A DNA stretch of 64,000 nucleotides from Arenicola marina (taxonomy: Eukaryota > Annelida > Polychaeta > Arenicolidae), in contig OZ025252.1 of NCBI GenBank assembly GCA_964019135.1, forward strand, positions 11,610,823-11,674,822, given 5' to 3'. Below the pieces are notes generated by a model. The model was not told the DNA's origin, did not search any database, and saw nothing but the letters and a program-made list of their open reading frames with translations. This document shows, one piece after another, positions 4,264 through 63,031 of this stretch (positions are counted from its first letter, which is position 1; every line of letters begins with the position of its first letter). The translations under genes and the position numbers were made by a program.

Positions 4264-4303
<40 letters not shown>

Positions 4304-7980: not shown

Positions 7981-8170
7981 ATATTTCAAAAGTGGACTGA
8001 GTTGTCCTTGTCTCTTTCCTATCATGTAAAGCAGCGGTGGTTTGTTACATATTATACATATTGGTGCTAAGCGGACGCTGCATGCACCATACTAACGAGC
8101 AATGACTTCAGAATTATATGGCTTATATTCTTAGAATAACTAAGGCTGCGGCAAAAAACAAAATACAGCC

Positions 8171-8471
8171 TTATGTTGTAGCAAGACACTTGTTGATCAG
8201 TGTTAATGTGTGGCGCCACAGCTCTACAGAGGCCAGCACTGTGAGTGCGGCCAGAGCCAGCCACGGACCTCCCCCAGCATGGAGGCTTCCCACTGAGTTG
8301 TCCGCGTGGGAGATGAGCTCTGGCGGGGGCAGAATATCAGAATTACACAGGTTTCCTTGGCAACACACGGTACAGGAACCGTTGAGACGAGTCCACAGTG
8401 ACACCAGCTCGTCCATGAAGGTCTGGCTGAAGTCCATCGAAGGGTCTTCCACGGAATCCGAGAGGTATACA
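8171..8471 (-). CDS. Terminal exon: end of three-finger domain and C-terminal hydrophobic tail
   Basis: Acceptor CTACCTTTCAG precedes 8471; stop TAA at 8173-8171. Contains [14 protein letters not shown], the CC-x4-C-N signature that closes Ly6/uPAR domains. This is followed by a spacer and the hydrophobic stretch [16 protein letters not shown] with a short tail. That pattern suggests GPI-anchor attachment; a transmembrane helix with a 14-residue tail is the alternative. Confidence 0.82.
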
Positions 8472-11400: not shown

Positions 11401-14400
11401 GGACATATCGGACAGGCTGGGTCATGTCGGACAGGCTGGACATGTGGGACAGGCTGGGTCATGTCGGACAGGCCGGACATATCGGACAAGGCTGGGTCAT
11501 GTCGGACAGGCCGGACATATCGGCCAGGTTGAACGCTAGTCTGCGACGGCTCACCTTGCGCCTGACAGCCCTCCGGCGTGCAGCGTTCCTCACTCGCCTC
11601 GATGCGATAGGTGGCCTCGTCCACCACCACGGTCAGAAGGTCACCGGGGGCGTCACATGACCTCGTCCGATTCCGCGATGCTGTGGCGCAGTCTCCGTCA
11701 CAGTCAGACCACGTGGTCCACTCCTCACACAGGCTGAAATCTGTCACACATAGAACTATTTAGACCACGTGGCCCACTCCTCACACAGGCTTAATCTGTC
11801 ACACCTAGAACTATTCAGACCACGTGGTCCACTCCTCACACAGGCTGAAATCTGTCACACATAGAACTATTCAGACCACGTGGTCCACTCCTCACACAGG
11901 CTGAAATCTGTCACACATAGAACTATTCAGACCACGTGGTTCCCCCCTTACACAGGCTGAAATCTGTCACACATAGAACTATTCAGACCACGTGGCCCAC
12001 TCCTCACACAGGCTTAATCTGTCACACCTAGAACTATTCAGACCACGTGGTCCACTCCTCACACAGGCTGAAATCTGTCACACATAGAACTATTCAGACC
12101 ACGTGGCCCACTCCTCACACAGGCTGAAATCTGTCACACATAGAACTATTCAGACCACGTGGTTCCCCCCTTACACAGGCTGAAATCTGTCGCACATAGA
12201 ACTATTCAGACCACGTGGCCCACTCCTCACACAGGCTTAATCTGTCACACATAGAACTATTCAGACCACGTGGTAATCACATTGTAGCGTTGAACATATA
12301 TAGTATAAGCAGCAAAAGCTATATGTAATATACATATACAAGGAGAACACTGACGAGGACAGGGCATATTCTCGCAGATGATGATTTTCTGGGAAGGTCC
12401 GACACACTCCTGGCCTCCGAGTTGTGGTTTTGGATCGCTGCAGTAGCGGACGGCCGTCTGGAAGCCTGGGCCGCACGTGGCGGAACAAGGTCCATCGGGG
12501 GTCCACCCCGCCCACCCACCGTCCACTGGAACACACACGTGACGTCACCGGTATTATATACAGTCCGCATTATACAAGTCTCTCTCTTGGCCTTACAAGT
12601 ATTTATGTAGTACAAACAAGGTTATAATAATAATTTAGTGACAAAACTAAGGAATATGAGAATAATTTTAATTTAAACCCCACACTAAATGCCGTTTAAG
12701 GCAGATCAGTCGCTCGTGGCCCTCCCAACATTCACGGCGGCCACCTCAGTTTGGGTGTATCACACGTGATGTTGAAGACAATTCATGGCAAAAACTAGTA
12801 GCGTGTGTAGAGTGGTGGTGGGGGTGGGGGGGGGGGGGTCAATGCACCCCGTTGAAGTATTGAGTGGGCAGAATGTGAACGGCGTCCCTTTGAAAAGTGG
12901 AAGGGAAGGCGCGCCCCATCATATTGGTAGGAGGGGACCAACTTATTCCCGCTTCCGCAATCGTTCTTCGCCTCTGGTGTGGCTGATGCAGGAAGACACA
13001 CGAGGGAGGGCGGGAGATGACAGTGTATTTTGCACTGAAGCGGACGCAGGTGGAGAGATGAAGGTAGAGGATGACAGGCATAGATGCAGTGTATATTAAT
13101 TTAGCACATGGAAAAGGAAATATATAAGCAAGATATCAATATAGAGATTTACCGGGGTCGCACTCTGGTAACGAGCAGCTGTTTGACTGTGACGCGGATC
13201 CCGGGCAGAAGGCTTCCCTTCCGTCCGCCTGATCCGGAATGCATTCCCTGGTCCTGAGAGACACGCCAGTGCTGCAGCTGACAGAGCACTCCGTCCAACC
13301 ACTCCAGGAGCTCCACGAGCCGGAATTATCCGCGTCTGCAGCATGGAGGGCTTTCATAAGTAACAACTATGTCTATGTATGATCAATAAACAGCGGCGGC
13401 TGATCAGAGCTCACCAGAGAAGTTGAACAGTAGTGAATGTGTATCACCTTAATAACTTAGCATATGACAGTTCGAAGTACGTACAGTTTTGGCATTCCTT
13501 GCCGGTGAAACCTTCCAGACACTGACACTCGTAGTCCTCTATCAGGTCAACGCATTGCACGTGGTTGTTGCACGGTTCGCTTGAACAATCGTCGATATCT
13601 GCCCAATGATCAAATGTACAAACGAGTTATGTTATCTTCAGAAAGCTATTATATAACTCCAATCGTTGCTAGTGTAGGTGGCAGATATTCCATGAGGGCA
13701 TGTCAAGCGGACCCCTTTATCATCGTGCTGCGGCCTATGACATGGCATGGTAAGTGTGGTTCAGTGCAGATACATAGACATGTTATGGTATGGTAAGTGT
13801 GGTACAGTGCAGATACATATCATTGTATGGTAAGTGTGACACAGTTAAAGCAGCCTAATTACATGCGCCATCTTTAATTTTTTACATTTTAGAACCAGTA
13901 CTAAAAGTATCTCAAAATTATGATGCATATGTTTTATATCTCTTGGAGTCTGTACAACAACAAGTTCAACATAAAAACTGCGCGGTTTATTTATATCGCG
14001 CGCGGACGTCGTAGCGAGGCTCGGCCGACATCACACACAGTATACCGACAGCGAACAGGCGCGCGGGGATATAAGGCCGGCCACCAACTTCTGCTCCGGT
14101 GAACCAATTTGCTTTTCTCCGGATAGCCCAAAGGCTATCAGGATTTAAAGCTAGATATAATATACCTATTTGACATGAAGAAGAAGTTGGTTACACACAA
14201 AAATTACAGAACATATTGCTTTAACAATATACTCCAGAAGACGGTCATAACCTTAACAATATACTCCAGAAGACGGTCATAACCTTAACAATATACTCCA
14301 GAAGACGGTCATAACCTTAACAATATACTCCAGAAGACGGTCATAACCTTAACTATTTACTCCAGAAGACGGTCATAACGTTAACAATATACCCCAGAAG

Positions 14401-17400: not shown

Positions 17401-20400
17401 TCATTGCAAATATAAATACATGTAGTTGCGATTCTTGGCTTCAATCCTGACTTCAATCATGGCTGACACTGGTGGTAACAGAGACACACTGACCTGTCTG
17501 ACACTGGTGGTAACAGAGACACACTGACCTGTCTGACACTGGTGGTAACAGAGACACACTGACCTGTCTGACACTGGTGGTAACAGAGACACACTGACCT
17601 GTCTGACACTGGTGGCAAAGAGACACACTGACCTGGCTAACACTGGTGGCAAAGAGACACACTGACCTGTCTGACACTGGTGGTAACAAAGACACACTGA
17701 CCTGTCAGACACTGGTGGTAACAGAGACACACTGACCTGTCTGACACTGGTGGTAACAGAGACACACTGACCTGTCTGACACTGGTGGTAACAGAGACAC
17801 ACTGACCTGTTTGACACTGGTGGTAACAGAGACACACTGACCTGTCTGACACTGGTGGTAACAGAGACACACTGACCTGTCTGACACTGGTGGTAACAGA
17901 GACACACTGACCTGTTTGACACTGGTGGTAACAGAGACACACTGACCTGTCAGACACTGGTGGTAACAGAGACACACTGACCTGTCTGACACTGGTGGTA
18001 ACAGAGACACACTGACCTGTTTGACACTGGTGGTAACAGAGACACACTGACCTGTCTGACACTGGTGGTAACAGAGACACACTGACGTGTCTGACACTAG
18101 TGGTAACAGAGACACACTGACCTGTTTGACACTGGTGGTAACAGAGACACAATGACCTGTTTGACACTGGTGGTAACAGAGACACACTGACCTGTTTGAC
18201 ACTAGTGGTAACAGAGACACACTGACCTGTCTGACACTAGTGGTAACAGAGACACACTGACCTGTCTGACACTGGTGGTAACAGAGACACACTGACCTGT
18301 CTGACACTGGTGGTAACAGAGACACACTGACCTGTCTGACACTGGTGGTAACAGAGACACACTGGCCTGTCTGACACTGGTGGTAACAGAGACACACTGA
18401 CCTGTCTGACACTGGTGGTAACAGAGACACACTGACCTGTCTGACACTGGTGGTAACAGAGACACACTGACCTGTCTGACACTGGTGGTAACAGAGACAC
18501 ACTGACCTGTCTGACACTGGTGGTAACAGAGAAACACTGACCTGTCTGACACTGGTGGTAACAGAGACACACTGACCTGTCTGACACTAGTGGTAACAGA
18601 GACACACTGACCTCTCTGACACTGGTGGTAACAGAAACACACTGACCTGTTTGACACTGGTGGTAACAGAGAAACACTGACCTGTCTGACACTGGTGGTA
18701 ACAGAGGCACACTGACATGTCTGACACTGGTGGTAACAGAGACACACTGACCTGGCTGACACTGGTGGTAACAGAGACACACTGACCTGTCTGACACTAG
18801 TGGTAACAGAGACACACTGACCTGTCTGACACTGGTGGTAACAGAGACACACTGACCTGTCTGACACTGGTGGTAACAGAGACACACTGACCTGTCTGAC
18901 ACTGGTGGTAACAGAGACACACTGACCTGTCTGACACTGGTGGTAACAGAGACACACTGACCTGTCTGACACTAGTGGTAACAGAGACACACTGACCTGT
19001 CTGACACTGGTGGTAACAGAGACACACTGACCTGTCTGACACTAGTGGTAACAGCGACACACTGACCTGTCTGACACTGGTGGTAACAGAGACACACTGA
19101 CCTGTCTGACACTGGTGGTAACAGAGACACACTGACCTGTCTGACACTGGTGGTAACAGAGACACACTGACCTGTCTGACACTGGTGGTAACAGAGACAC
19201 ACTGACCTGTCTGACACTGGTGGTAACAGAGACACACTGACCTGTCTGACACTAGTGGTAACAGCGACACACTGACCTGTCTGACACTGGTGGTAACAGA
19301 GACACACTGACCTGTCTGACACTGGTGGTAACAGAGACACACTGACCTGTCTGACACTGGTGGTAACAGAGACACACTGACCTGTCTGACACTGGTGGTA
19401 ACAGAGACACATTGACCTGTCTGACACTGGTGGTAACAGAGACACACTGACCTGTCTGACACTGGTGGTAACAGAGACACACTGACCTGTCTGACACTGG
19501 TGGTAACAGAGACACACTGACCTGTCTGACACTAGTGGTAACAGCGACACACTGACCTGTCTGACACTAGTGGTAACAGAGACACACTGACCTGTCTGAC
19601 ACTGGTGGTAACAGAGACACACTGACCTGTCTGACACTGGTGGTAACAGAGACACACTGACCTGTCTGACACTGGTGGTAACAGAGACACACTGACCTGT
19701 CTGACACTGGTGGTAACAGAGACACACTGACCTGTCTGACACTAGTGGTAACAGCGACACACTGACCTGTCTGACACTGGTGGTAACAGAGACACACTGA
19801 CCTGTCTGACACTGGTGGTAACAGAGACACACTGACCTGTCTGACACTGGTGGTAACAGAGACACACTGACCTGTCTGACACTGGTGGTAACAGAGACAC
19901 ATTGACCTGTCTGACACTGGTGGTAACAGAGACACACTGACCTATTTGACACTGGTGGTAACAGAGACACACTGACCTGTCTGACACTGGTGGTAACAGA
20001 GACACACTGACCTGTCTGACACTAGTGGTAACAGAGACACACTGACCTATTTGACACTGGTGGTAACAGAGACACACTGACCTGTTTGACACTGGTGGTA
20101 ACAGAGACACACTGACCTGTTTGACACTAGTGGTAACAGAGACACACTGACCTGTTTGACACTAGTGGTAACAGAGACACACTGACCTGTCTGACACTGG
20201 TGGTAACAGAGACACACTGACCTGTTTGACACCGGTGGTAACAGAGACACACTCACCTGTCTGACACTGGTGATAACAGAGACACACTGACCTGTTTGAC
20301 ACTGGTGGTAACAGAGACACACTGACCTGTCTGACACTGGTGGTAACAGAGACACACTGACCTGTCTGACACTGGTGGTAACAGAGACACACTGACCTAT

Positions 20401-23400
20401 TTGACACTAGTGGTAACAGAGACACACTGACCTGTCTGACATTAGTGGTAACAGAGACACACTGACCTCTCTGACACTGGTGGTAACAGAGACACACTGA
20501 CCTGTCTGACACTGGTGGTAACAGAGACACACTGACCTGTCTGACAATGGTGGTAACAGAGACACACTGACCTATTTGACACTAGTGGTAACAGAGACAC
20601 ACTGACCTGTCTGACACTAGTGGTAACAGAGACACACTGACCTCTCTGACACTGGTGGTAACAGAGACACACTGACCTGTCTGACACTGGTGGTAACAGA
20701 GACACACTGACCTGTCTGACACTAGTGGTAACAGAGACACACTGACCTGTCTGACACTAGTGGTAACAGAGACACACTGACCTGTCTGACACTGGTGGTA
20801 ACAGAGACACACTGACCTGTTTGACACTAGTGGTAACAGAGACACACTGACCTGTCAGACACTGGTGGTAACAGAGACACACTGACCTGTCTGACACTAG
20901 TGGTAACAGAGACACACTGACCTGTCTGACACTGGTGGTAACAGAGACACACTGACCTGTTTGACACTGGTGGTAACAGAGACACACTGACCTGTCTGAC
21001 ACTAGTGGTAACAGAGACACACTGACCTGTCTGACACTAGTGGTAACAGAGACACACTGACCTGTCTGACACTGGTGGTAACAGAGACACACTGACCTGT
21101 TTGACACTGGTGGTAACAGAGACACACTGACCTCTCTGACACTGGTGGTAACAGAGACACACTGACCTCTGACACTGGTGGTAACAGAGGCACACTGACC
21201 TGTCTGACACTGGTGGTAACAGAGACACACTGACCTGTCTGACACTGGTGGTAACAGAGACACACTGACCTCTCTGACACTGGTGGTAACAGAGACACAC
21301 TGACCTCTCTGACACTGGTGGTAACAGAGGCACACTGACCTGTCTGACACTGGTGGTAACAGAGACACACTGACCTGTCTGACACTGGTGGTAACAGAGA
21401 CACACTGACCTGTCTGACACTGGTGGTAACATAGACACACTGACCTGTTTGACACTGGTGGTAACAGAGACACACTGACCTGTCTGGCACTGGTGGTAAC
21501 AGAGACACACTGACCTGTCTGACACTGGTGGCAAAGAGACACACTGACCTGTCTGACACTGGTGGTAACAGAGACACACTGACCTGTCAGACACTGGTGG
21601 TAACAGCGACACACTGACCTGTCTGACACTGGTGGCAAAGAGACACACTGACCTCTGACACTGGTGGTAACAGAGACACACTGACCTCTCTGACACTGGT
21701 GGTAACAGAGACACACTGACCTCTCTGACACTGGTGGTAACAGAGGCACACTGACCTGTCTGACACTGGTGGTAACAGAGACACACTGACCTGTCTGACA
21801 CTGGTGGTAACAGAGACACACTGACCTGTCTGACACTGGTGGTAACAGAGACACACTGACCTGTTTGACACTGGTGGTAACAGAGACACACTGACCTGTC
21901 TGACACTGGTGGTAACTGACCTGTCTGACACTGGTGGCCAAGAGACACACTGACCTGTCTGACACTGGTGGTAACAGAGACACACTGACCTGTCAGACAC
22001 TGGTGGTAACAGCGACACACTGACCTGTCTGACACTGGTGGCAAAGAGACACACTGACCTCTCTGACACTGGTGGTAACAGAGACACACTGACCTGTCTG
22101 ACACTGGTGGCAAAGAGACACACTGACCTGTCTGACACTGGTGGTAACAGAGACACACTGACTGTCTGACACTGGTGGTAACAGAGACACACTGACCTGT
22201 CTGACACTGGTGGTAACAGAGACACACTGACCTGTCTGACACTGGTGGTAACAGAGACACACTGACCTGTTTGACACTGGTGGTAACAGAGACACACTGA
22301 CCTGTCTGACACTGGTGGTAACAGAGACACACTGACCTGTCTGACACTGGTGGCAAAGAGGCACACTGACCTCTGACACTGGTGGTAACAGAGACACACT
22401 GACCTCTCTGACACTGGTGGTGACAGAGACACACTGACCTCTCTGACACTGGTGGTAACAGAGGCACACTGACCTGTCTGACACTGGTGGTAACAGAGAC
22501 ACACTGACCTGTCTGACACTGGTGGTAACAGAGACACACTGACCTGTCTGACACTGGTGGTAACAGAGACACACTGACCTGTTTGACACTGGTGGTAACA
22601 GAGACACACTGACCTGTCTGACACTGGTGGTAACAGAGACACACTGACCAGTCTGACACTGGTGGCAAAGAGACACACTGACCTGTCTGACACTGGTGGT
22701 AACAGAGACACACTGATCTGTCAGACACTGGTGGTAACAGCGACACACTGACCTGTCTGACACTGGTGGCAATGAGACACACTGACCTGTCTGACACTGG
22801 TGGTAACAGAGACACACTGACCTGTCAGACACTGGTGGTAACAGCGACACACTGACCTGTCTGACACTGGTGGCAAAGAGACACACTGACCTGTCTGACA
22901 CTGTTGGTAACAGAGACACACTGACTGTCTGACACTGGTGGTAACAGAGACACACTGACCTGTCTGACACTAGTGGTAACAGAGACACACTGACCTGTCT
23001 GACACTGGTGGTAAAGAGACACACTGACCTGTTTGACACTGGTGGCAACAGAGACCCACTGACCTGTCTGACACTGGTGGCAACAGAGACACACTGACCT
23101 CTCTGACACTGGTGGTAAAGAGACACACTGACCTGTCTGACACTGGTAGTAACAGAGACACACTGACTTGTCTGACACTGGTGGTAACAGAGACACACTG
23201 ACCTGTCTGACACTGGTGGCAAAGAGACACACTGACCTGTCTGACACTGGTGGTAACAGAGACACACTGACCTGTCTGACACTGGTGGCAAAGAGACACA
23301 CTGACCTCTCTGGCACTGGTAGTAAAGAGACACACTGAACTGTCTGACACTGGTGGTAACAGAGACACACTGACCTGTCTGACACTGGTGGTAACAGAGA

Positions 23401-53400: not shown

Positions 53401-56400
53401 TCCACTGTACGTACGGTAGGTGCCGCACTCTTACCAAGACACTCCACTGTACGTACGGTAGATGCCGCACCCTTACCCAGACACTCCACTGCACGTACGG
53501 TAGATGCCGCACCCTTGTTCAGACACTCCACTGTAGTACGGTAGATACCGCACCCATATCTAGACACTACACTGTATGTACGGTAGATGCCGCACCCTTA
53601 TCCAGACACTTCCCTGTACGTACGGTAGATACCGCACCCATATCCAGACACTACACTGTATGTACGGTAGATGCCGCACCCTTTTCCAGACACTCCACTG
53701 CACGTACGGTAGATACCGCACCCTTACCCAGACACTCCACTGTACGTACGGTAGATACCGCACCCTTACCCAGACACTCCACTGTACGTACGGTAGATAC
53801 CGCATCCTTGCCCAGACACTCCACTGTACGTACGGTAGATACCGCACCCTTACCCAGACACTCCACTGTACGTACGGTAGATACCGCACCCTTATCTAGA
53901 CACTCCACTGTACGTACGGTAGATACCGCACCCTTACCCAGACACCCCACTGCACGTACGGTAGATACCGCACTTTTACCCAGACACCACAATGTACGTA
54001 CGGTAGATACCGCACCCTTACCCAGATACTCCACTATACGTACGGTAGATGCCGCACCCTTTTCCAAACACTCCACTGTACGTACGGTAGATACCGCACC
54101 CTTACCCAGACACTCCACTGTACGTACGGTAGATATCGCACCCTTACCCAGACACTCCACTGTACGTACGGTAGATATCGCACCCTTACCCAGACACTCC
54201 ACTGTACGTACGGTAGATACCGCACCGTTATCCAGACACTCCACTGTACGTACGGTAGATACCGCACCCTTTCCCAGACACTCCACTGTACGTACGGTAG
54301 ATACCGCACCCTTACCCAGACACTCCACTGGACGTACGGTAGATGCCGCACCCTTACCCCGACACTCCACTGTACATACGGTAGATACTGCACCCTTACC
54401 CAGACACTCCAAGGTACGTTCGGTAGATACCGCACCCTTACCCAGACACTCCACTGTACGTGCGGTAGATACCGCACCCTTATCCAGACACTCCACTGTA
54501 TGTACGGTAGATACCGCACCCTTACCCAGACACTCCACTGTACGTACGGTAGATGCCGCACCCTTACCCAGACACTCCACTGTGCGTACGGTAGATACCG
54601 CACCCTTACCCAGACACTCCACTGTACGTACGGTAGACACCGCACCCTTACCCAGACACTCCACTGTACGTACGGTAGATACCGCACCCTTACCCAGACA
54701 CTACACTGTACGTACGGTAGACACCGCACCCTTACCCAGACACTCCACTGTACGTACGGTAGATACCGCATCCTTGCCCAGACACTCCACTGTACGTACG
54801 GTAGATACCGCACCCTTACCCAGACACTCCACTGTACGTACGGTAGATACCGCACCCTTATCTAGACACTCCACTGTACGTACGGTAGATACCGCACCCT
54901 TACCCAGACACTCTACTGTACGTACGGTAGATACCGCACCCTAACCCAGACACTTCACTGTAGGTACGGTAGATACCGCACCCTTCCCCAACATTCCACT
55001 GTATGTACGGTAGATACCGCACCCTTCCCCAACACTCCACTGTACGTACGGTAGATACCGCACCCTTAGCCAGACACTCTACTGTACGTACGGTAGATAC
55101 CGCACCCTTACCCAGACACTTCACTGTAGGTACGGTAGATACCGCACCCTTACCCAGACACTTCACTGTAGGTACGGTAGATACCGCACCCTTCCCCAAC
55201 ATTCCACTGTATGTACGGTAGATACCGCACCCTTCCCCAACACTCCACTGTACGTACGGTAGATACCGCACCCTTAGCCAGACACTCCACTGTACGTACG
55301 GTAGATACCGCACCCTTACCCAGACACTCCACTGTATGTACGGCAGACACCGCACCCTTACCCAGACACTCCACTGTACGTACGGTAGATACCGCACCCT
55401 TACCCAGACACTCCACTGTACGTACGGTAGATACCGCACCCTTAACCAGACACTACACTGTACGTACGGTAGATACCGCACCCTTACCCAGACACTCCAC
55501 TGTACGTACGGTAGATACCGCACCCTTACCCAGACACTCCACTGTACGTACGGTAGATACCGCACCCTTACCCAGACACTCCACTGTACGTACGGTAAAT
55601 ACCGCACCCTTACCCAGACACTCTACTGTACGTATGGTAGATGCCGCACCCTTACCCAGACACTCCATTGTACGTACGGTAGATACCGCACCCTTATCCA
55701 GGCACACCACTGTACGTACGGTAGATACCGCACCCTTACCCAGACACTCCACTGTACGTACGGTAGATACCGCACCCTTACCCAGACACTCCACTGTACG
55801 TACAGTAGATACCGCACCCTTACCCAGACACTCCACTGTACGTACGGTAGATACCGCACCCTTACCCAGACACTCCACTGTACGTACGGTAGATACCGCA
55901 CCCTTACCCAGAAACTCCACTGTACGTACGGTAGATACCGCACCCTTACCCAGACACTCTACTGTACGTACGGTAGATACCGCACCCTTCCCCAACACTC
56001 CACTGTACGTACGGTAGATACCGCACCCTTAACCAGACACTCCACTGTACGTACGGTAGATACCGCACCCTTACCCAGACGCTCTACTGTACGTACGGTA
56101 GATATCGCACCCTTTCCCAGACACTCCACGGTACGTACGGTAGATACCGCACCCTTACCCAGACACCCCACTGTATGTTCGGTAGATACCGCACCCTTAC
56201 CCCGACACTCCACTGTAGGTACGGTAGATACCGCACCCTTACCCAGACACTCCACTGTACGTACGGTAGATACCGCACCCTTACCCAGACACTCCACTGT
56301 ACGTACGGTAGATACCGCACCCTTACCCAGACACTCCACTGTACGTACGGTAGATACCGCACCCTTACCCAGACACTTCACTGTAGGTACGGTAGATACC

Positions 56401-59400
56401 GCACCCTTCCCCAACATTCCACTGTATGTACGGTAGATACCGCACCCTTCCCCAACACTCCACTGTACGTACGGTAGATACCGCACCCTTAGCCAGACAC
56501 TCTACTGTACGTACGGTAGATACCGCACCCTTACCCAGACACTTCACTGTATGTACGGTAGATACCGCACCCTTCCCCAACCCTCCACTGTACGTACGGT
56601 AGATACCGCACCCTTAGCCAGACACTCCACTGTACGTACGGTAGATACCGCACCCTTACCCAGACACTCCACTGTATGTACGGCAGACACCGCACCCTTA
56701 CCCAGACACTCCACTGTACGTACGGTAGATACCGCACCCTTACCCAGACACTCTACTGTACGTACGGTAGATACCGCACCCTTAACCAGACACTACACTG
56801 TACGTACGGTAGATACCGCACCCTTACCCAGACACTCCACTGTACGTACGGTAGATACCGCACCCTTACCCAGACACTCCACTGTACGTACGGTAGATAC
56901 CGCACCCTTACCCAGACACTCCACTGTACGTACGGTAGATACCGCACCCTTACCCAGACACTCTACTGTACGTATGGTAGATGCCGCACCCTTACCCAGA
57001 CACTCCACTGTACGTACGGTAGATACCGCACCCTTATCCAGGCACACCACTGTACGTACGGTAGATACCGCACCCTTACCCAGACACTCCACTGTACGTA
57101 CGGTAGATACCGAACCCTTACCCAGACACTCCACTGTACGTACAGTAGATACCGCACCCTTACCCAGACACTCCACTGTACGTACGGTAGATACCGCACC
57201 CTTACCCAGACACTCCACTGTACGTACGGTAGATACCGCACCCTTACCCAGAAACTCCACTGTACGTACGGTAGATACCGCACCCTTACCCAGACACTCT
57301 ACTGTACATACGGTAGATACCGCACCCTTCCCCAACACTCCACTGTACGTACGGTAGATACCGCACCCTTACCCCGACACCCCACTGTATGTACGGTAGA
57401 TACCGCACCCTTACCCCGACACTCCACTGTAGGTACGGTAGATACCGCACCCTTACCCAGACGCTCTACTGTACGTACGGTAGATATCGCACCCTTACCC
57501 AGACACTCCACTGTACGTACGGTAGATACCGCACCCTTACCCAGACACCCCACTGTATGTACGGTAGATACCGCACCCTTACCCAGACACTCCACTGTAG
57601 GTACGGTAGATACCGCACCCTTACCCAGACACTCCACTGTACGTACGGTAGATACCGCACCCTTACCCAGACACTCCACTGTACGTACGGTAGATACCGC
57701 ACCCTTACCCAGACACTCCACTGTACGTACGGTAGATACCGCACCCTTACTCAGACACTCCACTGTACGTACGGTAGATACCGCACCCTTCCCCAACACT
57801 CCACTGTACGCACGGTAGATACCGCACCCTTACCCAGACACTCTACTGTACGTACGGTAGATACCGCACCCTTCCCCAACACTCCACTGTACGTACGGTA
57901 GATACCGCACCCTCACCCAGACACTCCACTGTACGTACGGTAGATACCGCACCCTTACCCAGACACTCCTCTGTACGTAGGGTAGATACCGCACCCTTAC
58001 CCAGACACTCCACTGTACGTACGGTAGATACCGCATCCTTACCCAGACACTCCATTGTACGTACGGTAGATACCGCACCCTTACCCAGACACTCCACTGT
58101 ACGTACGGTAGATACCGCACCCTTACCCAGACACTCCACTGTACGTACGGTAGATGCCGCACCCTTACCCAGACACTCCACTGCACGTACGGTAGATACC
58201 GCACCCTTACCCAGACACTCCACTGTACCTACGGTAGATATCGCACCCTTACCCAGACACTCCACTGTACGTACGGTAGATACCGCACCCTTACCCAAAC
58301 ACTCCACTGTTCGTACGGTAGATACCGCACCCTTACCCAGACACTCCACTGTACGTACGGTAGATACCGCACCCTTACCCAGCCACTCCACTGTACGTAC
58401 GGTAGATACCGCACCCTTACCCAGACACCCCACTGTACGTACGGTAGATACCGCACCCTTATCCAGTCACTCCATTGTGCGTACGGTAGATACCGCATCC
58501 TTACCCAGACACTCCATTGTACGTACGGTAGATACCGCACCCTTACCCAGACACTCCACTGTACGTACGGTAGATACCGCATCCTTATCCAGACACTCCA
58601 TTGTACGTACGGTAGATACCGCACCCTTACCCAGACACTCCACTGTACGTACGGTAGATACCGCACCCTTGCCCAGACACTCCACTGTACGTACGGTAGA
58701 TACCGCACCCTTACCCAGACACTCCACTGTACATTCGGTAGATACCGCACCCTTACCCAGACACTCCACTGTACGTACGGTAGATGCCGCACCCTTACCC
58801 AGACACTCCACTGTACGTACGGTAGATACCGCACCCTTACCCAGACTCTCCACTGTACGTACGGTAGATACCGCACCCTTACGCAGACACTCCACTGTAC
58901 GTACGGTAGATACCGCACCCTTATCCAGACACTCCACTGTACGTACGGTAGATACCGCACCCTTATCCAGACACTTCATTGTACGTACGGTAGATACCGC
59001 ACCCTTACCCAGACACTCCACTGTACGTACGGTAGATACCGCACCCTTACCCAGACACTCCACTGTACGTACGGTAGATGCCGCACCCTTACCCAGACAC
59101 TCCATTGTACGTACGGTAGATACCGCACCCTTATCCAGGCACACCACTGTACGTACGGTAGATACCGCACCCTTACCCAGACACTCCACTGTACGTACGG
59201 TAGATACCGCACCCTTACCCAGACACTCCACTGTACGTACAGTAGATACCGCACCCTTACCCAGACACTCCACTGTACGTACGGTAGATACCGCACCCTT
59301 ACCCAGACACTCCACTGTACGTACGGTAGATACCGCACCCTTACCCAGAAACTCCACTGTACGTACGGTAGATACCGCACCCTTACCCAGACACTCTACT

Positions 59401-62400
59401 GTACGTACGGTAGATACCGCACCCTTCCCCAACACTCCACTGTACGTACGGTAGATACCGCACCCTTAACCAGACACTCCACTGTACGTACGGTAGATAC
59501 CGCACCCTTACCCAGACGCTCTACTGTACGTACGGTAGATATCGCACCCTTTCCCAGACACTCCACGGTACGTACGGTAGATACCGCACCCTTACCCAGA
59601 CACCCCACTGTATGTACGGTAGATACCGCACCCTTACCCCGACACTCCACTGTAGGTACGGTAGATACCGCACCCTTACCCAGACACTCCACTGTACGTA
59701 CGGTAGATACCGCACCCTTACCCAGACACTCCACTGTACGTACGGTAGATACCGCACCCTTACCCAGACACTCCACTGTACGTACGGTAGATACCGCACC
59801 CTTACCCAGACACTTCACTGTAGGTACGGTAGATACCGCACCCTTCCCCAACATTCCACTGTATGTACGGTAGATACCGCACCCTTCCCCAACACTCCAC
59901 TGTACGTACGGTAGATACCGCACCCTTAGCCAGACACTCTACTGTACGTACGGTAGATACCGCACCCTTACCCAGACACTTCACTGTATGTACGGTAGAT
60001 ACCGCACCCTTCCCCAACACTCCACTGTACGTACGGTAGATACCGCACCCTTAGCCAGACACTCCACTGTACGTACGGTAGATACCGCACCCTTACCCAG
60101 ACACTCCACTGTATGTACGGCAGACACCGCACCCTTACCCAGACACTCCACTGTACGTACGGTAGATACCGCACCCTTACCCAGACACTCCACTGTACGT
60201 ACGGTAGATACCGCACCCTTAACCAGACACTACACTGTACGTACGGTAGATACCGCACCCTTACTCAGACACTCTACTGTACGTACGGTAGATACCGCAC
60301 CCTTACCCAGACACTCCACTGTACGTACGGTAGATACCGCACCCTTACCCAGACACTCCACTGTACGTACGGTAGATACCGCACCCTTACCCAGACACTC
60401 CACTGTACGTACAGTAGATACCGCACCCTTACCCAGACACTCCACTGTACGTACGGTAGATACCGCACCCTTACCCAGACACTCCACTGTACGTACGGTA
60501 GATACCGCACCCTTACCCAGAAACTCCACTGTACGTACGGTAGATACCGCACCCTTACCCAGACACTCTACTGTACATACGGTAGATACCGCACCCTTCC
60601 CCAACACTCCACTGTACGTACGGTAGATACCGCACCCTTACCCCGACACCCCACTGTATGTACGGTAGATACCGCACCCTTACCCCGACACTCCACTGTA
60701 GGTACGGTAGATACCGCACCCTTACCCAGACGCTCTACTGTACGTACGGTAGATATCGCACCCTTACCCAGACACTCCACTGTACGTACGGTAGATACCG
60801 CACCCTTACCCAGACACCCCACTGTATGTACGGTAGATACCGCACCCTTACCCCGACACTCCACTGTAGGTACGGTAGATACCGCACCCTTACCCAGACA
60901 CTCCACTGTACGTACGGTAGATACCGCACCCTTACCCAGACACTCCACTGTACGTACGGTAGATACCGCACCCTTACCCAGACACTCCACTGTACGTACG
61001 GTAGATACCGCACCCTTACTCAGACACTCCACTGTACGTACGGTAGATACCGCACCCTTCCCCAACACTCCACTGTACGCACGGTAGATACCGCACCCTT
61101 ACCCAGACACTCTACTGTACGTACGGTAGATACCGCACCCTTCCCCAACACTCCACTGTACGTACGGTAGATACCGCACCCTCACCCAGACACTCCACTG
61201 TACGTACGGTAGATACCGCACCCTTACCCAGACACTCCTCTGTACGTAGGGTAGATACCGCACCCTTACCCAGACACTCCACTGTACGTACGGTAGATAC
61301 CGCATCCTTACCCAGACACTCCATTGTACGTACGGTAGATACCGCACCCTTACCCAGACACTCCACTGTACGTACGGTAGATACCGCACCCTTACCCAGA
61401 CACTCCACTGTACGTACGGTAGATGCCGCACCCTTACCCAGACACTCCACTGCACGTACGGTAGATACCGCACCCTTACCCAGACACTCCACTGTACCTA
61501 CGGTAGATACCGCACCCTTACCCAGACACTCCACTGTACGTACGGTAGATACCGCACCCTTACCCAAACACTCCACTGTTCGTACGGTAGATACCGCACC
61601 CTTACCCAGACACTCCACTGTACGTACGGTAGATACCGCACCCTTACCCAGCCACTCCACTGTACGTACGGTAGATACCGCACCCTTACCCAGACACCCC
61701 ACTGTACGTACGGTAGATACCGCACCCTTATCCAGTCACTCCATTGTGCGTACGGTAGATACCGCATCCTTACCCAGACACTCCATTGTACGTACGGTAG
61801 ATACCGCACCCTTACCCAGACACTCCACTGTACGTACGGTAGATACCGCATCCTTATCCAGACACTCCATTGTACGTACGGTAGATACCGCACCCTTACC
61901 CAGACACTCCACTGTACGTACGGTAGATACCGCACCCTTGCCCAGACACTCCACTGTACGTACGGTAGATACCGCACCCTTACCCAGACACTCCACTGTA
62001 CATTCGGTAGATACCGCACCCTTACCCAGACACTCCACTGTACGTACGGTAGATGCCGCACCCTTACCCAGACACTCCACTGTACGTACGGTAGATACCG
62101 CACCCTTACCCAGACTCTCCACTGTACGTACGGTAGATACCGCACCCTTACGCAGACACTCCACTGTACGTACGGTAGATACCGCACCCTTATCCAGACA
62201 CTCCACTGTACGTACGGTAGATACCGCACCCTTATCCAGACACTTCATTGTACGTACGGTAGATACCGCACCCTTACCCAGACACTCCACTGTACGTACG
62301 GTAGATACCGCACCCTTACCCAGACACTCCACTGTACGTACGGTAGATGCCGCACCCTTACCCAGACACTCCACTGTACGTACGGTAGATACCGCACCCT

Positions 62401-62913
62401 TACCCAGACCCTCCACTGTACGTACGGTAGATACCGCACCCTTACCCAGACACTCCACTGTACGTACGGTAGATACCGCACCCTTACCCAGACACTCTAC
62501 TGTACGTACGGTAGATACCGCACCCTTACCCAGACACTCCACTGTACGTACGGTAGATACCGAACCTTTACCCAGACACTCCACTGTACGTACGGTAGAT
62601 ACCGCACCCTTACCCAGACACTCCACTGTACGTACGGTAGATACCGCACCCTTACCCAGACACTCCACTGTACGTACGGTAGATACCGCACCTTTACCCA
62701 GACACTCTACTGTACGTACGGTAGATACCGCACCCTTACCCAGACACTCCACTGTACGTACGGTAGATACCGCACCCTTACCCAGACACTCCACCACGAT
62801 ATTAGGGTCGACGTAGGGGTAGTCTAAGTCTGGGCACAGCCACTCCGTTGTCGCCTCGTAGGGAAAACTCTCTGAGCCTTGCAAAGCGTAACACTTTAGG
62901 TCGTTTAAAGATT
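8171..62913 (-). CDS. Mosaic PAN/lectin/WSC/EGF/TSP1/Ly6 surface protein, 3' 26 exons (5' end outside window)
   Basis: A large extracellular protein, read right to left, with about 1,413 residues in this window. Order: Cys-rich piece (62,782-62,913), PAN (50,009-50,236), fucolectin-type domain (45,371-45,592 + 43,682-43,933), C-type-lectin-like piece (42,166-42,375), F5/8-like domain (41,810-41,914 + 39,960-40,120 + 39,661-39,817), PAN (37,633-37,863), unassigned (36,730-36,963), WSC (36,161-36,324 + 34,223-34,358), unassigned (33,824-33,958), seven EGF (33,274 to 13,485), three TSP1 (13,335 to 11,555), and a Ly6/uPAR three-finger domain (9475 to 8171). All 25 junctions agree in phase and most are phase 1, typical of exon shuffling. 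The likely role is adhesion or glycan binding at the cell surface; this is inference from domains. I do not recognise a named orthologue. No signal peptide is visible because the N-terminus is off the right edge. Confidence 0.85.
8783..8878 (-). CDS. Three-finger domain, middle exon
   Basis: Acceptor CGCCCTAG; donor GTCAGT. Encodes [19 protein letters not shown] and then [11 protein letters not shown]. Phase 2 in and out, matching both neighbours. Confidence 0.75.
8888..9190. repeat. 152-bp tandem duplication
   Basis: Sequence from 8888 to about 9038 recurs from 9040 to about 9190 with only a few differences (for example ATATATGG versus ATATGTGG). It starts only 7 bp from the acceptor of the middle three-finger exon. 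The near-identity suggests a recent event. Confidence 0.9.
9334..9475 (-). CDS. Three-finger (Ly6/uPAR) domain, first exon
   Basis: Acceptor GCGAGTTAG; donor GTTAGT. Starts [11 protein letters not shown], the usual L-x-C-x-x-C opening of Ly6 domains, and goes on through [20 protein letters not shown]. The acceptor comes right after the TSP1 modules. Confidence 0.78.
9590..9870. repeat. Degenerate repeat rich in TGACGTCA
   Basis: About seven degenerate copies of an approximately 35-45-bp unit containing GCTGACGTGTCGTCTTGTG and CACAAAACACTAGCTG. At least four units carry a perfect TGACGTCA (around 9650, 9750, 9820 and 9856). Confidence 0.7.
9980..11530. repeat. 18-bp minisatellite in intron after third TSP1 exon
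   Basis: About 86 copies of an 18-bp unit, consensus GGCTGGACATGTCGGACA on the plus strand, with common variants CTGAATATG, ATTGGATATG and CAGGTCGATC. The period is a multiple of three, so both strands give very long open frames (LSDMSS / RLDMSD); these are artefacts. It begins about 25-40 bp past the exon donor and does not contain it. Confidence 0.95.
11555..11740 (-). CDS. TSP1-like domain 3
   Basis: Acceptor GTGTGACAG; donor GTGAGC. Encodes [17 protein letters not shown], then RNRTRSC and ERCTPEGC. The W-x-x-W-S-x-C and C-x-x-C spacing fits thrombospondin type-1 but is divergent (no CSxxCG). Confidence 0.78.
11741..12273. repeat. 57-bp minisatellite containing the 3' splice site of TSP1 exon 3
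   Basis: About nine to ten copies upstream of the exon. On the minus strand every unit has GTGTGACAG|ATTTCAGCC, i.e. the acceptor, plus the first ~37 bp of the exon. The true exon start at 11,740 is the last copy. The exon frame inside the other copies meets an early TAG, so use of upstream acceptors would truncate the protein. Confidence 0.92.
12355..12525 (-). CDS. TSP1 domain 2
   Basis: Acceptor GTGTTCCAG; donor GTCAGT. Encodes [20 protein letters not shown], then RYCSDP, CVGPSQ and CENMPCP: a standard thrombospondin type-1 repeat with W-x-x-W, CSxTCGxG and six cysteines. Confidence 0.9.
12526..13152. other. Intron between TSP1 domains 1 and 2
   Basis: Contains a G run near 12,824-12,838. 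I see no exon, RNA gene or clear element in this stretch. Confidence 0.5.
13153..13335 (-). CDS. TSP1 domain 1
   Basis: Acceptor GCTGCAG; donor GTAAAT. Encodes [27 protein letters not shown] and [10 protein letters not shown]. This is a canonical thrombospondin type-1 repeat with the W-x-x-W-x-x-W C-mannosylation/heparin-binding motif. Confidence 0.93.
13485..13598 (-). CDS. EGF domain 7 (calcium-binding type)
   Basis: Acceptor TTGGGCAG; donor GTACGT. Encodes [17 protein letters not shown] then [14 protein letters not shown]. The D-I-D-D-C start and central F/Y are typical of calcium-binding EGF. 114 bp, phase 1-1. Confidence 0.9.
13599..14217. other. Intron stretch with small duplication and GC-rich patch
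   Basis: Around 13,745-13,845 a segment with TGGTAAGTGTGG and CAGTGCAGATACATA is duplicated in tandem. At 13,978-14,080 a GC-rich patch with CGCGCGCG is seen. No coding evidence. Confidence 0.5.
14218..14606. repeat. 32-bp minisatellite carrying TTAA in each unit
   Basis: About 12 copies with core CTCCAGAAGACGGTCATAAC preceded by TTAACAATATA. Further copies occur at 15,988-16,023 and 16,424-16,457, beyond two inserted elements, so the array was once continuous. Confidence 0.92.
14607..15987. mobile_element. TTAA-flanked inverted-repeat DNA element, 1.38 kb
   Basis: Ends are AGTCCATCTCTT (14,607) and AAGAGATGGACT (to 15,987), exact inverted repeats flanked on both sides by TTAA, the target duplication of the piggyBac superfamily. 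It sits in a copy of the 32-bp repeat. Internally a minus-strand open stretch around 15,563-15,760 (residues [19 protein letters not shown]) has no match I recognise. The terminal bases are not the CCC typical of piggyBac itself, so the family call is tentative. Confidence 0.65.
16024..16423. mobile_element. TTAA-flanked MITE, 400 bp
   Basis: Terminal inverted repeats of about 35 bp (16,024-16,058 and 16,389-16,423, about four mismatches; both contain CTTTCCCGCCAAAACTAA or its complement). TTAA is found at 16,020-16,023 and 16,424-16,427. Copies of the 32-bp repeat lie on both sides. Non-autonomous; no coding capacity. Confidence 0.8.
16536..16649 (-). CDS. EGF domain 6
   Basis: Acceptor CCACACAG; donor GTAAGT. 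Encodes [15 protein letters not shown] then [14 protein letters not shown]. Non-calcium type start (L-E-C). 114 bp, phase 1-1. Confidence 0.92.
16948..17061 (-). CDS. EGF domain 5 (calcium-binding type)
   Basis: Acceptor GGTGTTAG; donor GTACGG. Encodes [19 protein letters not shown] then [14 protein letters not shown]. 114 bp, phase 1-1. Confidence 0.93.
17062..17458. other. Unique end of the intron carrying the 35-bp array
   Basis: A/T-rich intron sequence before EGF exon 5 on the minus strand. I see nothing recognisable apart from short ACGTT repeats. Confidence 0.5.
17459..29103. repeat. 11.6-kb, 35-bp minisatellite built on the 5' splice site of EGF exon 4
   Basis: About 330 copies. On the minus strand the unit holds the exon end and donor, GTGTCAGACAG|GTCAGTGTG, then TCTCTGTTACCACCA. 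The copy nearest 29,104 is the genuine exon-intron boundary. Unit variants include TTTGACA, CTAGTGG and shorter copies with GGCAAAGAGA. None of the three frames of the minus strand has a stop in the consensus, which explains the long open frames. Rare variants recur at spacings of 4,063 to 4,894 bp, showing block duplication. Confidence 0.97.
29104..29217 (-). CDS. EGF domain 4 (calcium-binding type)
   Basis: Acceptor CTGTTTAG; donor GTCAGT, the first donor of the 35-bp array. Encodes [20 protein letters not shown] then [17 protein letters not shown]. 114 bp, phase 1-1. Confidence 0.93.
29218..31342. other. Intron between EGF 3 and 4, non-repetitive
   Basis: Mostly unique A/T-rich DNA. The motif GGCAGTAGCGGATCAC at about 30,144 recurs as its inverse near 30,375-30,393 (TGATCCGCTACTGCC), with a variant at about 29,951 (GGCAGCAGCGGATCAC); this may be an old inverted-repeat element. 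A plus-strand open stretch at 29,425-29,610 ends at a good donor but lacks an ATG, so I do not call it a gene. Confidence 0.45.
31343..31459 (-). CDS. EGF domain 3 (calcium-binding type)
   Basis: Acceptor TTTAATAG; donor GTCAGT. Encodes [18 protein letters not shown] then [17 protein letters not shown]. 117 bp, phase 1-1. Confidence 0.93.
31684..32884. repeat. 54-bp minisatellite built on the 5' splice site of EGF exon 2
   Basis: About 22 copies. Each minus-strand unit repeats the last ~43 bp of EGF exon 2 plus its donor: TGCGAGACAG|GTAGGTACAG. 54 bp is 18 codons, and the exon frame stays open through the copies, repeating the EGF C-terminal loop ([18 protein letters not shown]). Alternate units read GTEWETG, losing the sixth Cys, or carry an ACAA|GTAGGT donor. 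Confidence 0.96.
32885..32998 (-). CDS. EGF domain 2 (calcium-binding type)
   Basis: Acceptor ATATCCAG; donor GTAGGT. Encodes [20 protein letters not shown] then [17 protein letters not shown]. The exon end is the source sequence of the adjoining 54-bp array. Confidence 0.93.
33167..33274 (-). CDS. EGF domain 1
   Basis: Acceptor CATTGCACAG; donor GTCAGT. Encodes [20 protein letters not shown] then [17 protein letters not shown]. 108 bp, phase 1-1. Confidence 0.92.
33275..33660. repeat. 43-bp minisatellite containing the 3' splice site of EGF exon 1
   Basis: About nine copies, better preserved near the exon. On the minus strand each unit has the acceptor CTACCATTGTGCAG|ATG; the real acceptor at 33,275 is the last copy (CATTGCACAG). 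The far copies diverge to TTTACCAGTGTACAG. Confidence 0.9.
33824..33958 (-). CDS. Cys-rich exon of unknown fold before the EGF array
   Basis: Acceptor TCTCCGGCAG; donor GTAGCT. Encodes [18 protein letters not shown], then [20 protein letters not shown]. The ending (C-x6-RFLCQRP) resembles the last strand of a C-type lectin domain, but the exon is too short to be a whole one. Unassigned. Phases fit both neighbours. Confidence 0.7.
34223..34358 (-). CDS. WSC domain, second half
   Basis: Acceptor GTTTGCAG; donor GTAGGA. Encodes [15 protein letters not shown], then [20 protein letters not shown]. The CFC, C-x3-C and CGG-(x)-NVY pattern is the signature second half of the WSC carbohydrate-binding domain. 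Confidence 0.9.
34359..36160. other. Phase-0 intron splitting the WSC domain
   Basis: Holds the 34,868-36,100 minisatellite. The remaining unique part (34,359-34,867) has a plus-strand open stretch with no recognisable protein. Confidence 0.55.
34868..36100. repeat. Compound minisatellite with two alternating modules
   Basis: A 28-bp module starting GACTGGTCGACACAAATGAA and a 16-bp module GTACCTTTAAACCTCT combine in varying numbers. Copies with GTCAACAC and CTGGACC recur in order, showing higher-order units of a few hundred bp (for example the stretch near 35,630-35,700 recurs near 35,930-36,010). Unlike its neighbours it does not include either exon boundary. Confidence 0.93.
36161..36324 (-). 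CDS. WSC domain, first half
   Basis: Acceptor ATCCTACAG; donor GTGAAG. Encodes [18 protein letters not shown], then [20 protein letters not shown]. The G-C-F-x-D opening, M-x-x-x-C-x-x-x-C and Y-A-x-(V/L)-E are WSC signatures. It leaves at phase 0 and joins the second half at E-S-S-W-E-C. Confidence 0.9.
36730..36963 (-). CDS. Unassigned Cys-rich exon between PAN and WSC
   Basis: Acceptor TCTTGCAG; donor GTAAGC. Encodes about 78 residues including [35 protein letters not shown] and [10 protein letters not shown]. Four to five cysteines. I do not recognise the family. Phase 1-1. Confidence 0.75.
37199..37575. repeat. Degenerate tandem repeat of ~28 bp
   Basis: Poorly conserved copies of a unit with ATTCTGTCTACGAAATAAAC; the last three (from about 37,418) are nearly identical (TTCTGCGAAATAAACTTAGG). 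It lies in the intron after PAN domain 2. Confidence 0.75.
37633..37863 (-). CDS. PAN/Apple-like domain 2
   Basis: Acceptor TCTTTACAG; donor GTAGAC. Encodes [15 protein letters not shown], then [20 protein letters not shown] and [14 protein letters not shown]. It shares the C-x3-C-x4-ACQGF-x-Y core with the exon at 50,009-50,236, so the two are internal paralogues. Confidence 0.82.
37950..37972. repeat. AT microsatellite
   Basis: ATATAT run next to the 3' end of the LINE fragment. Confidence 0.85.
37985..39570 (-). mobile_element. 5'-truncated non-LTR retrotransposon (LINE), reverse transcriptase fragment
   Basis: Minus-strand reverse transcriptase blocks in order: [20 protein letters not shown], then [58 protein letters not shown] and the catalytic LFADDS box near 39,020. 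The thumb region ([15 protein letters not shown]-like) follows to about 38,300. The blocks lie in at least three frames, so it is inactive. The A/T-rich TTATTATTATTAGTAGTAGT tail near 38,009-37,988 marks the 3' end. Jockey/CR1-like clade by motif style. It sits in the intron after the F5/8-like domain, in the host gene's orientation. Confidence 0.85.
39661..39817 (-). CDS. F5/8 type C-like (discoidin-like) domain, third exon
   Basis: Acceptor TTTACACAG; donor GTGAGC. Encodes [20 protein letters not shown], then [20 protein letters not shown]. The closing beta-strands with NGF-x-x-V-QVW are typical of this galactose-binding-fold family. Confidence 0.82.
39960..40120 (-). CDS. F5/8 type C-like domain, second exon
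   Basis: Acceptor TATTGACAG; donor GTGAGT. Encodes [20 protein letters not shown], then [20 protein letters not shown] and SDFSEQT. The EWAT-N-x-EG and [10 protein letters not shown] motifs are shared with many invertebrate lectin-like surface proteins. Confidence 0.87.
40206..41041. mobile_element. pogo/Tigger-like non-autonomous DNA transposon, 836 bp
   Basis: Ends CAGTGGAATCCCGCTTTAAG (40,206) and the inverse near 41,014-41,041 ending GGAGATCCACTG; about 27-bp terminal inverted repeats with a few mismatches. TA flanks both ends. The CAGTGGA-type terminus with TA duplication is known for pogo/Tigger elements. No transposase is recognisable inside. Confidence 0.8.
41391..41639. mobile_element. 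MITE with 18-bp terminal inverted repeats, 249 bp
   Basis: Starts GGGGCCGTATTCATAATC and ends GATTATGAATACGGCTCC; these are inverse of each other with one mismatch. No coding capacity. I could not identify a convincing target duplication, so the superfamily is open. Confidence 0.8.
41810..41914 (-). CDS. F5/8 type C-like domain, first exon (GC donor)
   Basis: Acceptor CCACTGCAG; ends with CAGG|GCAAGT, a GC-AG type donor, the only one in this gene. Encodes [20 protein letters not shown], then CENALDDNQ. Using the GC donor gives phase 1 and the expected join [13 protein letters not shown]. The GT 4 bp further on would give the wrong frame. Confidence 0.82.
42166..42375 (-). CDS. C-type-lectin-like exon
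   Basis: Acceptor TGTTTGCAG; donor GTAAGT. Encodes [40 protein letters not shown] and QGVWVDN. It resembles the first half of a C-type lectin fold (helix with A-x-x-x-C, LAH strand, AAAQYI helix), but the second half with the Ca-binding WND is not seen. Confidence 0.68.
42376..43681. other. Intron with SINE and old repeat sequence
   Basis: About 42,850-43,490 is full of CAATGTTG/CATTGAT palindrome-like words (for example ATTGATTCAATGTTG) on both sides of a tRNA-like segment. This suggests an old DNA element into which a SINE inserted. No exon is seen. Confidence 0.4.
43196..43335 (+). mobile_element. tRNA-derived SINE fragment
   Basis: GTGGCGCATTGGGTAAGCAT resembles a pol III A box in a tRNA head, followed about 35 bp later by a B-box-like AGTGCGAAACC. 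The tail is undefined. Too degenerate for a tRNA gene. Confidence 0.4.
43682..43933 (-). CDS. Fucolectin-type (FTP) lectin domain, second exon
   Basis: Acceptor AATTTTGCAG; donor GTAAGC. Encodes [13 protein letters not shown], then [18 protein letters not shown] and [10 protein letters not shown]. With the preceding exon it reads [18 protein letters not shown], the hallmark of the eel-fucolectin/tachylectin-4/pentraxin-1 family. Confidence 0.9.
44083..45370. repeat. 35-bp minisatellite built on the 5' splice site of FTP exon 1
   Basis: About 37 copies. On the minus strand each unit is the last ~29 bp of the exon and its donor: GGCCGACTGTTGTG|GTAAGT followed by CATCCTGGCC. The copy at 45,371 is the real exon end. 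Many units retain GTAAGT exactly; a few have GTATGT or GTACGT-type changes. Confidence 0.96.
45371..45592 (-). CDS. Fucolectin-type (FTP) lectin domain, first exon
   Basis: Acceptor GACCCGCAG; donor GTAAGT. Encodes [49 protein letters not shown] and ILANRADCC. Matches the VALGKPA-x-QSS, AVDG and PWW motifs of F5/8-fold fucose-binding lectins. Each end is embedded in its own splice-site minisatellite. Confidence 0.92.
45593..49905. repeat. 4.3-kb, 46-47-bp minisatellite containing the 3' splice site of FTP exon 1
   Basis: About 92 copies. On the minus strand each unit carries GTGACCCGCAG|TGTC, the exon's own acceptor and first bases, or the variant GTGACCTGCAG|TGTC. Three spacer variants (CCATAGA, CCACACA, CCTTGA) alternate. 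Groups of units recur in order (for example around 47,100-47,160 and 47,285-47,345). Confidence 0.95.
50009..50236 (-). CDS. PAN/Apple-like domain 1
   Basis: Acceptor GTTCTTGTAG; donor GTCAGT. Encodes [20 protein letters not shown], then [31 protein letters not shown] and FDFSRGI. PAN-type cysteine spacing; paralogous to the exon at 37,633-37,863. Confidence 0.83.
50312..62781. repeat. 12.5-kb, 42-bp minisatellite built on the 5' splice site of the first visible exon
   Basis: About 297 copies. On the minus strand each unit reads GTACAG|TGGAGTGTCTGG|GTAAGGG: the exon end with donor, and an AG just before it. Variant units with GGATAAGG have lost the GT; others have CTTGGTAAG or shorter forms with GTTGGGGAAGG. 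42 bp is 14 codons, so the exon frame ([14 protein letters not shown]) stays open for about 1 kb into the array. Rare variants recur 3,269 bp apart (57,911 and 61,180). Open frames on the plus strand are by-products. Confidence 0.97.
62782..62913 (-). CDS. First visible exon of the mosaic gene, Cys-rich piece
   Basis: Acceptor CTGATTGCAG; donor GTAAGG, the first donor of the 42-bp array. Encodes [20 protein letters not shown], then [20 protein letters not shown] and CL. Probably the end of a domain begun upstream; family not recognised. The phase-1 donor joins to D-ESFEY of PAN domain 1. Confidence 0.78.
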
Positions 62914-63031
62914 CTGCAATCAGACGGAGAGTTAGCTTAGGTGAGGAAAGGAATGACGATGTACCACCGTGCCCCGGCCCCATGCTAGTTGTGCGCTTTA
63001 CACTAGGAGGTAATCTGTTTTTGGGCCAGTG
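62914..63031. other. Unique spacer between exon and edge repeat
   Basis: Intron of the mosaic gene. Nothing recognisable in 118 bp. Confidence 0.5.

Follow-up and report, generated by a model that had tools for sequence, protein, structure and literature searches.

Tandem arrays over exon edges in one gene and elsewhere in its genome

Why should a single gene carry minisatellites over seven of its exon boundaries? We examined this question in a window of 64,000 nucleotides (C5:11,610,823-11,674,822 of an 867-Mb assembly in 762 contigs), for which an initial annotation had proposed that the splice sites themselves seed the arrays. The gene lies on the minus strand, and 24 exons were built for it, from E1 (62,913-62,782) to E24 (about 8,471), encoding a mosaic of EGF, TSP1 and WSC domains. 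The frame, traced by translation across the joined exons E1-E5, E7-E9 and E11-E24, stays open, and most junctions are phase 1; E6 and E10 were placed by length only, with a guessed donor for E6, and the starts of several exons are uncertain. Pfam recognized, above its curated cut-offs, an F5/8 type C domain, a WSC domain, seven EGF stretches and two TSP1 stretches, with the PAN domains falling slightly under the cut-offs (PAN-like exon E2, 50,009-50,236), and the domains run through the joined exons. No close homologue of the protein was found; the 12 matches comprised 11 with F5/8-type domains and one EGF-rich protein. The 23 introns total 50,769 bases, 35,819 of which (70.6%) are array, and 15,625 bases remain once every array is reduced to a single unit; array growth can thus lengthen introns several-fold (50.8 kb against 15.6 kb). 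The large intron 6 has no listed array, and at 38,356-39,595 (minus strand) it carries fragments that resemble a LINE-type reverse transcriptase when their translation is read.

Tandem Repeats Finder (TRF) recovered all seven boundary arrays, and direct reading of the minus strand, on which all of them are given, placed the splice site inside the terminal copy each time. The coding exon always joins that terminal copy, which is the first donor or the last acceptor, and both the frame and the Pfam domains continue from it; the existence of the arrays and the terminal position of the genuine boundary are therefore borne out. At E1 (62,782-62,913), the donor at 62,782 is the terminal copy of a 42-bp array of 298 copies, 297 of them full (D1; 50,310-62,794), with 13 of 42 bases exonic and 99.4% of intron 1 occupied. 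Exon E3 (45,371-45,592), with an F5/8 type C-like domain, has an array at each edge. Its acceptor at 45,592 ends a 47-bp array of 93 copies, 92 full (A3; 45,589-49,909; 4 of 47 bases exonic), which fills 97.8% of intron 2, and its donor at 45,371 begins a 35-bp array of about 38 copies, 37 full (D3; 44,075-45,401; 31 of 35 bases exonic), which fills 96% of intron 3. Three EGF exons follow: the acceptor of E12 (33,167-33,274) at 33,274 has a 43-bp array of 9.8 copies (33,272-33,689; 3 of 43 bases exonic), the donor of E13 (32,885-32,998) at 32,885 lies within a 54-bp array of 23 copies (31,683-32,933; 49 of 54 bases exonic), and the donor of E15 (29,104-29,217) at 29,104 lies within a 35-bp array of 335 copies, 334 full (D15; 17,463-29,118; 15 of 35 bases exonic), which occupies 96.7% of intron 15. 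Finally, the acceptor of E21 (11,555-11,740; TSP1-like from a reading of its sequence) at 11,740 lies in a 56-57-bp array of 10 copies (11,704-12,274; 37 of 57 bases exonic). Here the frame favours GTGACAG|ATTTCAG over ATTTCAG|CC, both of which lie inside the unit.

The claim that each unit contains the exon edge holds well at five of these sites. It is weak at the acceptors 45,592 and 33,274, because those arrays include only 4 and 3 exonic bases, and the two are closer to an array that stops at the splice site than to one that includes the exon edge. The units had also been described as unrelated apart from the splice consensus. That description was judged by eye only, and the units at 32,885 and 29,104 both carry CAGACAGGT, which combines the last bases of an EGF exon with the donor. 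Eight further arrays of the gene region (63,022, 37,428, 34,872, 14,221, 13,742, 9,983, 9,580 and 8,887) cross no edge. By way of contrast, the 18-bp array of intron 21 (9,983-11,528, minus strand) begins 26 bp into the intron and lacks the E21 donor, and the 16/38/54-bp compound array of intron 9 (34,872-36,113, minus strand) touches no exon. The 14-bp array at 63,022 extends for about 3.9 kb in the intron upstream of E1 (window 63,022-64,000, then L026:1-2873); beyond it, L026 holds one more exon of the gene and then a 42-bp array (3105-10000) that reaches the end of that stretch.

Tandem arrays are abundant in the sampled DNA of this genome. In 21 stretches of 10 kb, taken at round coordinates from ten chromosomes, TRF arrays with a period of at least 10 cover about 81 of 210 kb (about 39%, by addition), and masking of all periods gave 38.7%. 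Forty-nine arrays in these stretches score at least 100, three of which cross an exon edge identified here. We set exon edges by hand in recognizable genes elsewhere. Arrays cross 3 of 42 edges in one set and 3 of 32 in another, and two ERK edges checked by eye have none, giving 6 of 76. Three planned edges were absent from the sequence and were dropped (one in L031, two in L032). These 76 edges are not a random sample of exons: L040 and L041 were chosen since their genes already showed an array, and the L027-L039 stretches were chosen by kinase match. Two of the 76 edges (L026) belong to the exon of the window's own gene that lies upstream of the window. The names ClC, WASHC4, TRPM, CDK9 and others come from reading translations; only the kinase domains of L027-L039 come from a search.

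The six arrays lie in conserved genes and comprise donor arrays in ClC (L010; 71 bp x 32) and WASHC4 (L012; 70 bp x 14), two more donor arrays in WASHC4 (L041; 41 bp x 7 and 29 bp x 9), an acceptor array in TRPM (L015; 92 bp x 2.3) and a TRPM donor array cut off at the end of its stretch (L040; 41 bp x 136), so that boundary arrays occur at three exons of WASHC4 and two of TRPM. Three further arrays start or stop within 5 bp of a junction (one in L027, two in L041). Some related structures were left out of the strict count. The copies of a 47-bp array at L015:2448-2559 resemble the donor region of TRPM that lies about 700 bp upstream (L015:1716), making it a displaced boundary array. The units of a 31-bp array at L030:1395-2400 carry CACACAGGTAAAC, which is similar to the genuine donor 52 bp upstream, CTACACAG|GTAAGC (L030:1343), and the array may be a boundary array that has diverged. 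A ClC acceptor region is imperfectly duplicated in two copies (L010, minus strand, 5165-4925), which drew no TRF report. An 84-bp array at L014:5186-6015 lies, by our reading, in a zinc-finger-like open frame and is a coding repeat and not a boundary array.

These counts bear on the claim that seven such arrays in one gene would be exceptional. In the window, 7 of 46 edges have a boundary array compared to 6 of 76 elsewhere (Fisher P = 0.23), or 13 of 122 in total, including the 7 in a window chosen for the pattern. The window gene is not exceptional within its genome, because other genes have boundary arrays too and the rate is not significantly different. One further case has the design of a boundary array without any splice site. 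In CDK9, a 107-bp array of 9.6 copies (L036:1710-2701) covers the stop codon: the first copy codes for the C-terminus of the protein (HFERVF, stop), and the later copies lie downstream of the stop.

Are there more arrays on exon edges than chance would place there? As a null for the window, 14 seeds of unit length were placed uniformly on the array-collapsed gene, the 14-bp array at 63,022 being excluded since its intron leaves the window. Uniform seeding predicts that 1.65 of the 14 arrays cross an edge, and 7 were observed (P = 3.6e-4, an optimistic value because the window was chosen for showing the pattern); with the two weak arrays dropped, five or more crossings have P = 0.016. When each array is confined to its own intron, the expectation rises to 4.1 crossings, since the seven introns in question measure 89-436 bp once collapsed, and the probability becomes 0.056 for seven crossings and 0.38 for five or more. 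Much of the pattern in the window is therefore short-intron geometry. For the 76 edges outside the window, uniform seeding predicts 2.36 crossings against 6 observed (P = 0.034), and for the window and the 76 edges together 4.0 against 13 (P = 2.8e-4). This roughly threefold excess over uniform seeding remains. Short introns lessen it and may explain it, but perhaps not wholly, and exon edges may in addition be subject to a bias in mutation or in retention. Without the window and without L040 and L041 there is no evidence of an excess (3 observed against about 1.9 expected, by subtraction).

Such an excess is what would be seen if exon edges, chiefly splice sites, were mutational hot spots, through co-transcriptional R-loops, polymerase pausing or slippage between AGGT-like direct repeats. 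We consider this unlikely, even though the crossing counts under uniform seeding favour it, since its support shrinks with arrays kept in their own introns or with the selected stretches removed, and since the CDK9 array lies over a stop codon. Nor do the units point to it. Unit statistics cover 13 arrays (the TRPM acceptor array has one full copy only), and the splice site shows a uniform distribution along the unit (KS P = 0.99), with GT or AG no better preserved than the remaining dinucleotides (mean rank 0.50, KS P = 0.87), although with 13 arrays a modest tendency in the position or conservation of the splice motif could escape detection. The fixed motif position or special conservation of a splice-site-seeded class is thus not seen in these 13 arrays. 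Sense-strand GC skew is positive in five of the window's seven arrays (one negative, one zero), as R-loop seeding would have it; over all 13 arrays, however, the signs are mixed, with six positive, six negative and one zero.

Donor motifs, scored in the 49 arbitrary arrays with a weight matrix, are mildly enriched (mean percentile 0.60, KS P = 0.011), which also favours hot spots. Motif counts exceed expectation at scores of 5 (22 vs. 15.5), 8 (6 vs. 3.1) and 9 (4 vs. 1.8). At a score of 6, however, there is no excess (10 vs. 9.95), and the boundary arrays of ClC and WASHC4 themselves make up two of the four arrays that score highest. The proposal of the initial annotation that splice sites seed arrays, whether through R-loops or otherwise, is therefore not upheld by motif position, motif conservation, GC skew or the stop-codon array.

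The copies themselves record how the arrays grew. The first copy matches the array consensus at 1.00 in D1, D15 and D3 and at 0.98 in the TRPM donor array, such that the genuine terminal copy of these four large donor arrays equals or nearly equals the consensus. For the acceptor array A3, the match of the genuine end copy is 0.91, no better than that of other copies. Blocks were copied as well: a run of 19 identical consecutive copies in D1 and one of 25 in D15 reappear at a distance of 78 and 118 copies, respectively. The large donor arrays look as if they were born from the exon edge and enlarged partly by block copying, without detectable coding constraint. Long near-identical arrays assemble poorly, and an assembly artefact is for that reason a natural suspicion. 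However, the copies differ from one another (113 of 297 are distinct in D1 and 61 of 335 in D15) and form higher-order blocks, genes on several chromosomes show the same pattern, and boundary arrays of amphioxus appear in two papers, passages of one of which argue from re-sequencing against assembly error (PMC3087553, PMC3902484). We regard an artefact as extremely improbable.

A functional role for the repeated, or decoy, splice sites would require that they be used, giving isoforms of variable length or slow or regulated splicing, and that selection keep them. Many decoys do have a perfect splice dinucleotide (329 of 334 in D15, 135 of 135 in the TRPM donor array), two of the four donor arrays in the window have periods divisible by 3 (42 and 54), and long open frames traverse the arrays. 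On the other hand, splice dinucleotides are kept no better than others, and in D1 the GT is the worst-kept dinucleotide of all (intact in 224 of 297 copies). Only 3 of 13 periods are divisible by 3 (42, 54 and 57), which is no more than chance. Decoys show no constraint by codon position in nine arrays, with 44, 36 and 48 variants at positions 1, 2 and 3 (98, 97 and 97 sites; P = 0.42). Variants per site are lower in the exonic than in the intronic part when the nine arrays are pooled (0.44 vs. 0.73, P = 5.6e-5), but this difference reflects the mix of arrays, because within seven of the nine the exonic part is the more variable one. Selection for or against decoy splice sites was not detectable in the 13 arrays, and a functional role appears very unlikely.

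The reading that we prefer, with a probability of roughly 0.72, is that tandem duplications arise at random in a genome prone to arrays, are neutral, are tolerated where they cross the edge of a constrained segment, and then expand by blocks. The genome would make and retain short tandem duplications at a very high rate. A duplication of about 30-90 bp across a constrained edge would spare the outermost copy and would be harmless while the terminal copy stays in use; a duplication lying fully within an exon would usually be purged. Donors, acceptors and stop codons would be alike in this tolerance. The array could then expand into its free side, intronic or 3', partly via blocks of tens of units, and its growth would turn short introns into long ones. 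Several of these steps can be read directly: edge-crossing arrays in several genes, the terminal position of the genuine copy, block copies, decoys free of codon-position constraint and one stop codon, the support from stop codons coming from that one gene. Neutrality and the purging of exonic duplications are what we infer from this pattern.

Only the terminal splice site is presumably used, by analogy with amphioxus, for which Adh3 data and globin RT-PCR suggest normal splicing despite comparable boundary arrays (PMC3087553). Four observations count against neutral duplication with edge tolerance: the roughly threefold edge excess, the 0.91 match of the A3 end copy, the lower pooled variation of the exonic part and the donor-motif enrichment. 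The suggestion that selection to keep a boundary intact underlies the arrays survives as a filter on random duplications, though not as a seed. Edge tolerance replaces the notion that splice sites attract repeats; it is simpler, and it predicts the same behaviour at stop codons and other edges. We also entertain, as a doubtful proposition, that minisatellites of this genome really do arise preferentially at exon edges, that the splicing machinery picks by position (first donor, last acceptor) among up to 335 near-identical sites, and that array growth mainly sets intron length. If so, about one edge in ten would have a boundary array, which amounts to many thousands genome-wide.

We examined the lineage of the host with its single-exon DYRK2 gene, considering the best 120 of 3,465 matches. 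Among these the highest identity is 89%, and named sequences are led by the tubeworm Ridgeia at 80%, with the chiton Liolophura at 77%, Patella at 76%, Lineus at 75% and Branchiostoma lanceolatum at 71%. An IQ-TREE analysis of 36 rows, in which no annelid other than Ridgeia is named, groups the host sequence with Ridgeia and unnamed sequences in a clade with support (96/87 for the 10-row set, 99/97 for the 13-row set), apart from molluscs, nemerteans and deuterostomes. On these sequence comparisons the host groups as an annelid. An amphioxus host, as a candidate, is ruled out by the DYRK2 identity and tree. The kinase matches also brought out other features of the assembly. On the small contigs C443, C465, C504, C652, C330 and others, in-frame TAG and TAA codons are read through and TGA does not occur, as in ciliates, and these contigs probably represent ciliate contamination or symbionts. 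Chromosome C3 shows a large expansion of kinase-like genes: it holds dozens of them, many at 45-57 Mb, and in each a single open frame (usually about 280-320 codons) contains the domain. At C5:5402476-5437356, five kinase genes that share the same score and lie about 8.5 kb apart form a recent tandem gene array.

Among matches listed in literature searches on mirage minisatellites, on minisatellites of annelid or polychaete genomes and on related subjects, titles and the beginnings of abstracts disclosed no other boundary-spanning arrays, and the passages of the Ridgeia genome paper relevant to repeat terms do not mention them (PMC9921365). Neighbouring topics include changes that tandem repeats cause in human gene structure (PMC2812944) and minisatellites tied to alternative splicing in C. 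elegans (PMC4039745). Ordinary intronic minisatellites have the same unit length and array form as boundary arrays, and the window gene has them (9,983-11,528, 34,872-36,113 and 14,221-14,606); unlike boundary arrays, their unit has no exon edge. Outside amphioxus, a potato gene described in PMC4974935 likewise has a tandem duplication across an intron-exon boundary. There the duplication created a new intron, whereas here an existing intron was apparently only lengthened by the arrays.

The closest counterparts are the 'mirage' minisatellites of amphioxus, reported for Adh3, TnC, the globins BflGb6 and BflGb9, and PGBD5 in excerpts of PMC3087553 and PMC3902484, with somatic instability also reported for amphioxus. 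As in those excerpts, the units described here span exon-intron boundaries at donors and acceptors of several genes and repeat the splice signals, and the comparison with mirage repeats drawn in the initial annotation is supported by the passages of PMC3087553. Seven arrays in the window (two with only 3-4 exonic bases) and six elsewhere have a unit lying across an exon-intron boundary, and in the window gene the genuine boundary is terminal and the coding frame intact. The host differs, grouping with an annelid and not a cephalochordate; we treat a cephalochordate host as where mirages were reported and not as part of their definition. The arrays here also reach 334 full copies and 11.7 kb, compared to 3 and 6 units given for BflGb6 in the relevant passage of PMC3087553, and they cover 13 of 122 edges, 7 of them in a window chosen for the pattern, with one array over a stop codon besides. 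If this reading is true, such genes offer natural tests of spliceosomal choice between hundreds of nearly identical sites, and an amphioxus curiosity extends to a second, distant phylum, where it can be common.
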